DNA of 64,000 bases from Halobacterium litoreum (lineage in GTDB: Archaea; Halobacteriota; Halobacteria; Halobacteriales; Halobacteriaceae): assembly GCF_021233415.1 (NCBI RefSeq), contig NZ_CP089466.1:310001-374000 (forward strand). Direction: 5' to 3'. Both the position numbers and the translations under genes were made by a program. Below are positions 21,657-34,944 of the stretch, in pieces (the first letter of the stretch is position 1; every line of letters starts with the position of its first letter). The notes beneath the pieces are model-generated. The model searched no databases, was not told the DNA's origin, and saw nothing but the letters and a program-made list of their open reading frames with translations.

Positions 21657-21724
21657 GCTTTTTCCGCAAGTTTTTGCCGAGTGAGGCGAGGCAGCGCCGC
21701 GCCTCACGCAGCGCAAAAAGTGCG
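21657..21724 (-). repeat. Gene-end hairpin element, copy 1
   Basis: On the minus strand the order is CTTTTTGCGCTGC, a GC hairpin (GTGAGGCG...CGCCTCAC), then TCGGCAAAAACTTGCGG and AAAAAGC. The flanks match copies 2 and 3 at 34104 and 34452, while the hairpin bases differ. It lies 3' of tRNA-Leu and its palindromic fragment, read in the same direction. It resembles a terminator but is longer and more conserved than needed. Confidence 0.7.
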
Positions 21725-21725
21725 A

Positions 21726-21812
21726 TGCGAGGGGTGGGATTCGAACCGCCCGCAGACGGTCGCTCACTGCGTTCGCGCTGCGTCTGCTGTGCTTCGAATC
21801 CACCCTCTTCTC
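21726..21812 (-). other. Palindromic partial copy of the tRNA-Leu 3' end
   Basis: Bases 21726-21747 repeat exactly the 22 bases at 21841-21862, that is the acceptor and T-arm end of the neighbouring tRNA-Leu. Further along, 21793-21807 carries a slightly shorter inverted copy, and between them CGCAGACG/CGTCTGC pair, so the whole folds as one hairpin. It cannot fold as a tRNA because there is no D-arm or anticodon arm. It may be the footprint of an integration at the tRNA or a duplication. Confidence 0.6.
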
Positions 21813-21840
21813 GTCTACTCGCGTTCGCTCGCAGAACGAG

Positions 21841-21923
21841 TGCGAGGGGTGGGATTCGAACCCACGAACCCCTACGGGAGCGGGTCTTAAGCCCGCCGCC
21901 TTTGGCCGCTCGGCCACCCTCGC
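21841..21923 (-). tRNA. tRNA-Leu (anticodon UAA)
   Basis: The reverse strand folds as a class II tRNA: acceptor GCGAGGG/CCCTCGC with discriminator A, D-arm beginning GTGGCCGAGC, anticodon stem GCGGG/CCCGC with loop CTTAAGA (anticodon TAA), a long variable arm and a T-arm GTGGG-TTCGAAT-CCCAC. The CCA end is not encoded, usual for haloarchaea. It reads UUA, a rare codon at this GC content. Confidence 0.95.
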
Positions 21924-29997: not shown

Positions 29998-30085
29998 TTC
30001 CAGTTCAATTCCTCAAAGATATATTGAATTTACCATGAGCATTATCGCTCATTGATGGGCTTAGCCCAAGATAACGAAGTAACAA

Positions 30086-30805
30086 CTAGTATTCTTCTTT
30101 CAAATAAACTTTGGCCGTCTCTTTATGTCTTTCAAGCTTTTGTTCATCATACTCGCTATGGCGAGATTCTTCAAAATGTTCAAAGTAATTATTGAGTAAA
30201 TCAAGCAGATTCTCGGGCAAGTCGGTCCCCTCCCACCAGTTCCACCAATACTGTGGAATTGGCTCCTCGCCTTCAGGTGCGAGTGTCCGCGCAGATCTGT
30301 GAATACGAATGCCAAATGGTGGGGCTTCGGTTTCAGCCTCGTACGCGTCAGCCATTGGAACCCCTACCAAGATGCTATTCTTGTATCCCTCTGATCCAGC
30401 GATTGTTTCGGAGACCGATTCTGTTGTGTCTCCACCATGGTAGAGCGGTCCAAACGCAACTGCGGCTCTAATAATGGAGGTGTAATAAACCTCGAAATGG
30501 TCTTGTTCAGATTCTCCAACTAAATATTCCGCGTATCCTCTGAATATATCCTGTAGAAAGCCGATAAGCTCAAACTTCTCATCTGAAACGATGTACATCC
30601 CATCCATCATCGGGAAAATGTCGACATCGTAGTCATTCTGGACATCAAGGACTGCGTTGTGCATTTTTAGAACTTTGACTGCTCCAGTCTTCACAGATCG
30701 CCTCATTGCATTTGCAGTCCCCATTATGTCTAACCAAGCGATGTACTGGTTTTTGGGAGACTGCAACTCAGACGGGTCAACATATGGATCAATACTTGGA
30801 GGCAT
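30086..30805 (-). CDS. Predicted nucleotidyl-cyclase/palm-fold protein in AT-rich island
   Basis: A 239-residue protein of unusual composition with AT-rich codons. The order of motifs recalls class III nucleotidyl cyclase or palm-type polymerase domains: YIAWLDIMG (Asp26), then IFPMMDGMYIVSD (Asp68) about 40 residues on, followed by IIRAAVAFGPLYHGG (Arg113) and ILVGVPMADAYEAE (about 145-158). Two Asp residues at these positions usually hold the two metal ions. The end is helical and aromatic (QYWWNWWEGTDLPENLLDLLNNYF). This is fold-level inference with no database check; it may also be an inactive relative. It is transcribed alone and toward the TrmB gene. Confidence 0.6.
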   Translation of the reverse strand: MPPSIDPYVDPSELQSPKNQYIAWLDIMGTANAMRRSVKTGAVKVLKMHNAVLDVQNDYDVDIFPMMDGMYIVSDEKFELIGFLQDIFRGYAEYLVGESEQDHFEVYYTSIIRAAVAFGPLYHGGDTTESVSETIAGSEGYKNSILVGVPMADAYEAETEAPPFGIRIHRSARTLAPEGEEPIPQYWWNWWEGTDLPENLLDLLNNYFEHFEESRHSEYDEQKLERHKETAKVYLKEEY

Positions 30806-30821
30806 ATTACTACACTTCCAA

Positions 30822-30841
30822 CGAGAATGAATAAATTTAGG
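30822..30841 (-). promoter_or_regulatory. Promoter of the AT-rich island gene
   Basis: On the gene strand CTAAATTTATTCATTC lies about 20-37 bases before the ATG at 30805, matching a haloarchaeal TATA box for a leaderless transcript. The gene therefore carries its own promoter and need not rely on the host operon. Confidence 0.5.
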
Positions 30842-30852
30842 GGTGAAACGGC

Positions 30853-30885
30853 AACTGGCAGATGCAAATAGTGGATCTGCCAGTT
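30853..30885. repeat. Perfect 11-bp inverted repeat upstream of island gene
   Basis: AACTGGCAGAT and ATCTGCCAGTT flank an 11-base loop. It sits 44 bases 3' of the mptA stop and 48 bases 5' of the island gene start, so it could be a terminator for mptA, an operator for the island gene or an end of the inserted DNA. Confidence 0.6.
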
Positions 30886-30928
30886 TCGCTAGTACTGAAG
30901 GCTCACTAAACCAGAGGAAGAAAATTAA

Positions 30929-32884: not shown

Positions 32885-34099
32885 GTGGCTGACGAAGACG
32901 ACGAGGACTGGTTCGAGCAGGCGTTCGAGGACGAGACGCCCGACGACGAACCGACAGACGGCTCCCCGCCCGACGAGTCGGACGACGCCGAGAGCGACGC
33001 GGACGACCCGTCGAGCGACGAATCGACGGGCGAACCGACAGACGACTCGCGGAGCGGCGACGCCGAAAGCGATTCGTCGCCAAGCTTCGACGCCGAAAGC
33101 GATTCGCCACCCGAACCGGCGACCGGCGACGACGCCCCGCCCGAACCGGCGACCGGCGACGACGAGAACGACGCCGACGCCTTCGCGGACGCCTTCGGCG
33201 GCGGCGACCCCGCGCCAAACGACGGCGACGACGGCGACCTGTTCGAGGACGACTTCGCCGACGCGTTCGCCGGCGGCAGCGGTGGCGCGCCCGCACCCGG
33301 CGGTGGCGGAGGCGGCGGCGAGAACTTCGGCTTCGACCTCGACGGCGACACCGGCGGCGGCGCGCCCGGCGGCTTCGAGGAAGAGGAGGAGTACGACTCC
33401 GACATCCCCCGCATCGACGTCGGCATCGACGGCCTCGACGAGATGATTCAGGGCGGCCTCCCCGAGCGCTCCCTGATGGTCGCCATCGGCGAAGCCGGGA
33501 CCGGGAAGACCACGTTCGGCCTCCAGTTCCTCCACGAAGCCATCGAGAACGGCGAACGCGCCGTCTTCATCACGCTCGAAGAGTCACGCGAGCGCGTCGT
33601 CCAGAGCGCCACCGACAAAGGCTGGGAGTTCGAGCGCCACGCCGAAGAAGGCAACCTCGCCGTCATCGACATCGACCCCATCGAGATGGCGAACTCCCTC
33701 ACCAGCATCCGGAACGAACTCCCCCGGCTCGTCGAGGAGTTCGGCGCCAGTAGGCTCGTCCTCGACTCCGTCTCCCTCCTGGAGATGATGTACGACGACC
33801 AGTCCAAGCGCCGCACCGAAATCTACGACTTCACCAAATCGCTGAAGGACGCCGGCGTCACCACCATGCTCACCAGCGAAGCGAGCGAGGACTCCGCGTT
33901 CGCCTCTCGCTTCGGCATCATCGAGTACCTCACCGACGCCGTCGTCGTCCTCCGGTACATCTGCCCCGAGGACTTCCGGGAGACCCGACTCGCCGTCGAA
34001 ATCCAGAAGATACGCGACGCCAACCACTCCCGCGAAACCAAACCCTACGAAATCACCCACCAGGGAATCAGCGTCTACCGGCAAGCGAATATCTTCTGA
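32885..34099 (+). CDS. KaiC-family (RecA-like) ATPase with long acidic N-terminus
   Basis: A 404-residue protein, GTG start. Residues 1-175 are acidic low-complexity sequence; two internal direct DNA repeats encode PPEPATGDD twice and DAESDS twice, and short hydrophobic motifs recur ([28 protein letters not shown]). From 176 on it is one KaiC/RAD55-type domain: Walker [10 protein letters not shown] (about 202-210), Walker [15 protein letters not shown], then [28 protein letters not shown]. Such single-domain KaiC proteins are common in haloarchaea and mostly unassigned (signal transduction, GvpD-like repression, motility). The hairpin element starts five bases after the stop. Confidence 0.83.
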
Positions 34100-34103
34100 C
34101 GGA

Positions 34104-34160
34104 CCTTTTGCGCTGCGGGGCGCCTGCGGCGCCCCTCGGCAAAACCTCCACCAAAAGCCT
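34104..34160 (+). repeat. Gene-end hairpin element, copy 2
   Basis: On the plus strand: CCTTTTGCGCTGC, hairpin GGGGCGCC-TGC-GGCGCCCC, TCGGCAAAA, then CCTCCACCAAAAGCC. Same order as copies 1 and 3. It begins five bases after the KaiC-family stop in the sense direction. Confidence 0.75.
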
Positions 34161-34451
34161 CTGTCACCCCCGTCAGAGCGAAGCTCTGACGTGCTCTCGT
34201 TCGCTTCGCTCACGAGAACCCCTACGGGGGTTCCGTCGGCCCGAGCGCTCGCGGTGCTCGCGCTCGGTGAATCCCGCGCCTCGGGCACGTTCGAGCCGCT
34301 CGGCGCGCGAACGCTAGCTGGTGCCGGCTGGACAACGACTGACAGGCATCCGCGAGCGAGCGGTTCGAAGAACCCGAGTGACGCGGTTCACGCTACGAGC
34401 GACCGTGGGGAGCGAGTAGCGGCCGAGGAGTGACCGCAGGGAGCGACGCTG
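34161..34451. other. Non-coding stretch of small hairpins between convergent genes
   Basis: About 290 bases with no credible frame. Short perfect hairpins follow one another: CAGAGC-GAA-GCTCTG (34174-34188), CTCGTTCGCTTCGCTCACGAG, AACCCC-TACG-GGGGTT (34219-34232), GAGCGCTCGCGGTGCTCGCGCTC and GGTTC-GAA-GAACC. The loop GAA recurs, as at 21501 and 21552. The block is bounded by gene-end elements facing each other. Confidence 0.6.
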
Positions 34452-34515
34452 GCTTTTTCCGCAAGTTTTTGCCGAGGGGGTCGCCGCAGGCGACCCCCGC
34501 AGCGCAAAAAGTGCG
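34452..34515 (-). repeat. Gene-end hairpin element, copy 3
   Basis: On the minus strand: CGCACTTTTTGCGCTGC, hairpin GGGGGTCGCC-TGC-GGCGACCCCC, TCGGCAAAAACTTGCGGAAAAAGCC. It begins four bases after the UspA stop in the sense direction. The flanks match copy 1 nearly base for base; the hairpin differs in sequence but keeps its pairing. Confidence 0.78.
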
Positions 34516-34518
34516 TGC

Positions 34519-34944
34519 TTAGCGGACAATCGTTACTGGCATCGGGGAGCGTCGGACGACGTTCTCGGCGACGCTGCCGAGGAGGATACGGGAGACGCCG
34601 GAGCGGCCGTGGCTCCCCATCACGATGTGGTCGATGCCGTGTTCTTCGGCGTAGTCGACGATGGTTCGGCTGGGGCGCCCGACTTCCGTGGCGGTGTCGA
34701 GGGGGTGGTCGTACTCGTCGGCGACTTCCTGTGCTTCCTCGAACAGTTCGTCGGCGCCCTTCTTGGCTTGCTCGTACCACTCCTCGGAGTAGCCCGGCAC
34801 GGTCGCTTGGGCGGTGTAGCCGGCTTCGATGGGGTCGATGACGTTGATGACGGTGATGTCCGCGTCGACGAACTCTTCGAGCGCGTATTCGAGCGCGTCG
34901 TCTGCCTGCTTCGAGCCGTCGATGGGAACGAGAATCTTCGACAT
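34519..34944 (-). CDS. Universal stress protein (UspA family)
   Basis: A 141-residue single-domain UspA protein: KILVPIDGSKQADDALEYAL at the start, VINVIDP, then the nucleotide-binding end IVMGSHGRSGVSRILLGSVAENVVRRSPMPVTIV, which holds the G-x2-G-x9-G-S type ATP motif. ATP-binding UspA proteins act in stress survival, often through unknown partners. The ATG at 34942-34944 is clear. It runs toward the KaiC-family gene, and a hairpin element follows its stop. Confidence 0.93.
   Translation of the reverse strand: MSKILVPIDGSKQADDALEYALEEFVDADITVINVIDPIEAGYTAQATVPGYSEEWYEQAKKGADELFEEAQEVADEYDHPLDTATEVGRPSRTIVDYAEEHGIDHIVMGSHGRSGVSRILLGSVAENVVRRSPMPVTIVR

Follow-up and report, generated by a model that had tools for sequence, protein, structure and literature searches.

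A repeated, structured element at transcription-unit boundaries of Halobacteriales and its possible role in terminating transcription on both strands

Introduction

In Halobacterium litoreum, a KaiC-family gene and a UspA gene converge on an interval that holds two copies of one palindromic element, each just past a stop codon. We asked what this element is and what it may do at the ends of genes. The locus lies in the window, by which we mean the whole analysed stretch of 64,000 nucleotides (positions 310001-374000 of contig 1, genome of 2.71 Mb). From three copies, the first-pass annotation had described a gene-end hairpin with varying bases and kept pairing, facing itself between convergent genes.

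Archaeal RNA polymerase terminates at U-tracts, and a hairpin is described as not required; the bacterial bidirectional intrinsic terminator is a palindrome with T/A tracts that can be used from both strands. In a Haloferax reporter, a T5C stretch is described as having ended 95% of transcripts (PMC7237163), and for Methanococcus, it is reported that aCPSF1 binds and terminates most effectively when at least two U4 tracts are present (PMC8716108). No description of the present element was found in the open-access literature.

Results

The features of the window that concern the element are listed below, with genes called by our own codon-score method, which was trained on 18 window ORFs and may miss genes in distant genomes.

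21658-21723, minus strand: block A of copy 1, family 1
21726-21747, minus strand: duplicate of 22 nt from the tRNA-Leu 3' end, immediately preceding copy 1
21840-21923, minus strand: tRNA-Leu (TAA), intact
32885-34099, plus strand: KaiC-family gene, whose stop precedes copy 2 (own gene call; orthologs in 12 genus genomes)
34100-34157, plus strand: block A of copy 2, family 3 (outer strand CGGACC, TTTTGC, hairpin, GCAAAA, second A-tract)
34158-34266, plus strand: blocks B and C of copy 2, further hairpins (boundaries by eye)
34267-34315, plus strand: block D of copy 2 (GTGAATC...GCGAACGCT)
34345-34391, minus strand: block D of copy 3 (GTGAACC...GCGGATGCC)
34392-34452, minus strand: blocks B and C of copy 3 (boundaries by eye)
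34453-34514, minus strand: block A of copy 3, family 1 (GCAC-TTTTTGC-hairpin-GCAAAAA-CTTGCGG-AAAAAG)
34519-34944, minus strand: UspA gene (Pfam Usp), whose stop precedes copy 3 (own gene call and Pfam)

The exact pattern TTTTTGCGCTGCN{14,40}TCGGCAAAA matched twice in the window and in none of 100 dinucleotide shuffles; the T-run of copy 2 consists of four T's only. Copies 2 and 3 do follow stops, as annotated, with the difference that the T-run begins 6 nt past the KaiC-family stop and 8 nt past that of UspA. Copy 1 had been placed 3' of tRNA-Leu; it lies about 120 nt from the intact tRNA and 2 nt from the exact 22-nt duplicate of its 3' end. This direct repeat (21726-21747 and 21841-21862, 93 bp apart) resembles the attachment-site remains of an integrated element, and the boundary element stands after its outer copy. 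Elsewhere in the window, 931 bp at 29998-30928 are without predicted genes, with flanks that are AT-rich relative to the rest.

Genome-wide, a four-T pattern (TTTTGCGCTGC-N(12-42)-TCGGCAAAA) was found at 15 places and the looser TTTTGC-N(20-50)-GCAAAA at 26, with no match in the reversed control of either, and roughly 1% of genes carry the element. Each of the 26 stands in sense orientation at the 3' end of a gene: 24 of them come 4-8 nt after a stop codon, and the other two after the SRP RNA and the tRNA-Leu 3'-end duplicate. The analysis was extended to a family-1 set of 94 copies from 11 Halobacterium genomes (22 own, 72 others), where the T-run begins 3-10 nt past a coding-frame stop in 89. 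Sense orientation at 3' ends, which the first-pass annotation had claimed from three copies, thus holds in 26/26 own and 89/94 genus copies, and the tabulation of stop distance and orientation that it had proposed yields a single orientation, with 24 of 26 places at 4-8 nt. For comparison, a T4 run stands within 16 nt past the stop in 4/72 predicted window genes, two of which are the element carriers; no further sense-strand T4 run occurs in the next 200 nt in 67/94 copies. The five of the 94 copies not counted among the 89 comprise one at a tRNA end (L003), one at 20 nt (L104), two for which the scoring took another frame and a TAA lies 6 nt away (L098, L178), and one beside an IS605-like end (L171; G009:C1, about 1856571). 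At the last, a Y1 transposase (G009:C1:1855992-1856354) and the IS605-like end stand directly before the element, an arrangement suggesting that an insertion may have taken place at a gene end.

No function is common to the upstream genes, judged by Pfam for 10 of the 23 listed in the own genome: release factor eRF1, UspA, EMC3/TMCO1-like, SurE, topoisomerase VI-A, arginase, DnaJ, a ferredoxin oxidoreductase beta subunit, an AAA ATPase and PCNA. The next gene is convergent at 48 of the 94 copies, codirectional at 42 and uncalled at 4, so the element is not tied to convergent pairs, and a role solely as insulator of convergent genes is ruled out. Its facing itself, part of the original description, is incidental: facing pairs are a minority, made up of 14 stop-side copies and 2 promoter-side ones among 105 in the genus.

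Read outward from the gene, the element begins 1-4 nt past the stop with one strand of an outer helix (family 1: CCCA or CGCA), followed by a mismatch, T4-5GC, a variable hairpin with a loop of mostly 3 nt, GCA4-5, a short linker, the complementary outer strand (TGGG or TGCG), a second A-tract (AAAAAG) and usually more hairpins, which in most copies end in GTGAAYC...RRAYGCT. Three flank families differ in their outer strands and have this plan in common. The search pattern dictates the T4 tracts within block A; free of that selection is the second A-tract, which is present at 25 of the 26 own-genome places (all except L014) and gives the opposite strand two T4+ tracts. The block D motif GTGAAYC occurs within 320 nt in 73/94 copies, at an expectation of 0.027 per 320 nt from upstream coding sequence. 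The flanked hairpin of the first-pass annotation is therefore real, and the conserved unit is longer, comprising an outer helix (CNCA/TGNG), the T/A-tract helix, the second A-tract and further hairpins. Block D (GTGAAYC...GCGRATGCT) was also found apart from any T4GC block A at 3 of 10 places (G000:C1:1868513-1868559, 1937627-1937655 and 2093147-2093177, own genome); modules can thus occur separately. Rfam covariance models gave no match at E up to 5 for window positions 33900-34700, and a known RNA family was accordingly rejected for this interval.

Pairing is kept while bases change. One outer pair is G-C in 65, C-G in 25 and another combination in 4 of the 94 family-1 copies. Within hairpins of the commonest type (n=59, from position 6 n=58), stem positions 1-8 are paired in 59, 45, 57, 57, 56, 47, 39 and 39 copies, against shuffle maxima of 47, 29, 54, 39, 54, 42, 30 and 35; the inner counts are lower because the stems are unequal in length. 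A second set was assembled from other genera and consists of all 37 copies with a second A-tract contained in 40 stretches from five genomes. Here 33/37 can form an outer helix of 3 bp or more (shuffle mean 10.9, maximum 17), and CGA/TCG, GAA/TTC, CAA/TTG, GGA/TCC, CCA/TGG and GCA/TGC are all represented. These counts bear out the compensatory pattern proposed for the variable hairpin and carry it to the outer helix, which that proposal had not included.

Several asymmetries are weak signs in favour of the sense RNA. Its fold is the more stable in 62 of 91 copies and the antisense fold in 28, with 1 tie (p 0.0016). Relative to shuffles, with which 40 of the 91 were compared, the sense hairpin is stable (mean z -5.5). 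G-U pairs number 84/2035 in sense and 13/2009 in antisense, an excess that counts as about one event because it is mostly one inherited U-G in one hairpin class. Loops read C-TNC-G in 50/94 and C-GNA-G in 15/94. Watson-Crick pairs make up nearly all of the stems, as would also be expected of a DNA palindrome.

Copies also follow RNA genes. In the own genome, the SRP RNA of L014 spans 1178-1489 and the T-run starts at 1501. Across 13 genus genomes, a T/A-tract hairpin lies just past the SRP RNA in 8 (L195, L198, L199, L200, L202, L203, L205, L206), a degenerate one at L194 and none at L197 and L204; at L196 and L201 the RNA was not found with the search string used. Another genus has a copy about 8 nt past its RNase P RNA (L229), and a further copy (L231) follows what by eye is an apparent duplicate of a tRNA-Ile 3' end.

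Not all copies mark 3' ends. In the other genera, a stop adjoins the T-side in 21/37 copies, 11/37 stand upstream of a divergent gene start, and 5 are other or unassigned; 8 of the 11 are 44-54 nt from the start codon, and two (L213, L217) are weak cases with GTG starts 92 and 149 nt away. Within the genus, 96 of 105 copies are stop-side, 3 promoter-side and 6 other, L104 being a weak member of the three, as it lies 20 nt past a stop. In promoter-side copies, a TATA-like stretch separates the element from the ATG (L209, L215 and L192 are examples). Three of them (L114, L192, L222), from two Halobacterium genomes and another genus, stand upstream of one common gene, whose start (MSNGKYAARKLKKDR at L192) we take to be that of ribosomal protein S12. 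The gene-end reading is thus right about 3'-end placement and too narrow, given promoter-side copies in 11/37 distant and 3/105 genus cases, and transcription-unit boundary element is the better name.

The pattern CTTTTGC-N(20-50)-GCAAAA-N(8-9)-AAAA is present in 129/243 Halobacteriales genomes, from 38/77 genera; its reversed control gave 5 matches over the 243. A stricter pattern occurs in 10/43 genomes inside the order and in 0/203 genomes of the phylum outside it, and a class-wide search matched solely genomes belonging to Halobacteriales. Among named genomes, the exact pattern was found in 16 stretches, of which 11 are haloarchaeal (7 Halobacterium sp. CBA1126, 1 H. bonnevillei, 1 Haloarchaeobius, 2 Natrinema); the other 5, from Asticcacaulis, Pantoea, Butyricicoccus, Alteromonas and Treponema, were rejected as looking like chance, with misfitting flanks or stems.

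At the KaiC site, the element directly follows the stop in 9 of 12 genus genomes, in three flank families, and is missing from 3; a thirteenth genome has no close KaiC ortholog. In other species, a stretch near GTAGGTTCAAGTAGGAGAGCGGRACCAACCC is conserved between element and UspA (L134, L135, L136, L138, L139, L141, L143); the window lacks it, and UspA there carries an element of its own. Since the upstream genes of 68 of the 94 copies form 22 ortholog groups, the places are inherited. Hairpins within one genome nevertheless resemble each other beyond chance: the nearest neighbour lies in the same genome for 34.25 of 94 copies (permuted mean 11.7, maximum 23), and orthologous hairpins are only slightly more alike than random pairs drawn from the same genomes (mean 10.58 edits over 84 pairs vs 11.37), with 1.2% of random draws as low and 0/84 pairs identical. 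A direct count (paralog closer 144, tie 3, ortholog closer 20) was set aside as biased, because it takes a minimum over many paralogs against one ortholog. Fixed places with genome-specific hairpins look like concerted evolution.

Discussion

The element is a repeated unit with fixed position and orientation, conserved pairing and orthologous placement, absent outside the order in the sampled genomes. On balance, we consider it probable that it is a structured transcription-unit boundary element of Halobacteriales that terminates transcription on both strands. A polymerase leaving the gene would meet a single U4-5 tract no more than about 10 nt past the stop or RNA 3' end. One arriving from the intergenic side would first cross GC-rich hairpins and then encounter two U4+ tracts, spaced 7-9 nt, just before the gene 3' end or the next promoter, and this double tract is the arrangement best bound by archaeal aCPSF1/FttA, which may be involved. 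At gene ends and promoter edges, transcription would in this way be blocked both into and out of the unit. Because U-tract and A-tract pair with each other as part of a longer stem, read-through RNA would fold into a stable 3' hairpin. Because a U-tract terminator needs no hairpin, the U-tracts leave the conserved pairing unexplained; the hairpin may serve to stabilise or process read-through RNA, or the palindrome may act as DNA. On the sense strand there is one U-tract, with G after it where the tested Haloferax T5C has C, and an element carried by about 1% of genes is not the general terminator. Against termination may also be set the within-genome likeness of the hairpins, as would be expected of spreading repeats.

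Among known systems, the element would work most like the archaeal U-tract terminator that depends on aCPSF1/FttA: its U4-5 tract lies close past the gene on the sense strand, and its two opposite-strand U4 tracts match the best aCPSF1 substrates as reported (PMC8716108). It differs in that the U-tract belongs to a stem that is conserved and covaries, that more hairpins are present and that the architecture is repeated. Like a bacterial intrinsic terminator it is a palindrome with T/A tracts, unlike it the order is reversed on each strand, with the U-tract before the main hairpin and the A-tract after; a GC-rich hairpin leading directly into a U-tract was not found on the sense strand, which reads U-tract, hairpin, A-tract.

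By looks, the nearest kind is the bacterial REP, and it is possible, albeit unlikely, that the element is a REP- or MITE-like repeat that spreads by copying and survives where it is harmless to gene and promoter, any terminator effect being secondary. REP, REPIN and BIME sequences are described as short, dispersed, extragenic palindromes with conserved flanks, some of them near stops (PMC12306157; PMC3116915), and the many dispersed extragenic copies seen here (26 own places, control 0), their genome-specific hairpins, the different flank families at one KaiC site between species and the presence of some facing pairs would suit such a repeat. Against such a repeat speak the single orientation with 3-10 nt spacing in 89/94 and the 68/94 copies at orthologous places in 22 groups. 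The fixed spacing and orientation set the element apart from REPs, as do its conserved T4GC/GCA4 flanks and its presence after RNA genes and beside promoters. A REP feature that is lacking is the transposase: Y1/RAYT (PF01797, IS200/RAYT-type) gave no match in the own genome, with its 26 places, and was found in 7/13 genus genomes, being absent from 5 others besides the own; a classical REP/RAYT system was rejected on this ground. Haloarchaea do have mobile palindromic PATEs (palindrome-associated transposable elements), described as non-coding and palindromic, down to 52 bp, with strain-specific insertions and IS605-type ends (PMC3119063). Compared by description rather than sequence, they are another of the nearest kinds; the present element keeps its orthologous places and its gene-end orientation.

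Less probable still is a boundary at the DNA level, where the palindrome would extrude or bind topoisomerase, chromatin or nucleoid protein and so separate supercoiled units. The almost purely Watson-Crick stems agree with it, and so does the occurrence of the element at both stop-side and promoter-side boundaries; the strand asymmetry, with one sense T-tract against two antisense, and the sense bias of folds (62/91 vs 28) and loops (50 vs 15 of 94) do not, and no protein is known to bind the element. An mRNA 3' stabiliser or ribosome-stalling hairpin adjoining the stop codon is improbable, for although a stable sense hairpin starts 1-4 nt past the stop and E. coli REPs within 15 nt of stops are described as a precedent (PMC12306157), copies after SRP RNA, RNase P RNA and tRNA 3'-end duplicates, and the 11/37 distant ones upstream of promoters, have neither ribosome nor mRNA 3' end, which disfavours any stop-codon or ribosome function.

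Returning to a terminating boundary element, we tentatively suggest a more specific form, that of a cap particular to the Halobacteriales: a modular set of hairpins that would seal transcription units at both ends and on both strands, homogenised within each genome while its places are inherited. If this is true, hairpin sequences turn over and positions do not. A U-tract inside a covarying hairpin would make the insulation of haloarchaeal transcription units and the blocking of antisense transcription testable, and fixed places combined with within-genome hairpin likeness raise the question of how short dispersed repeats copy over one another.
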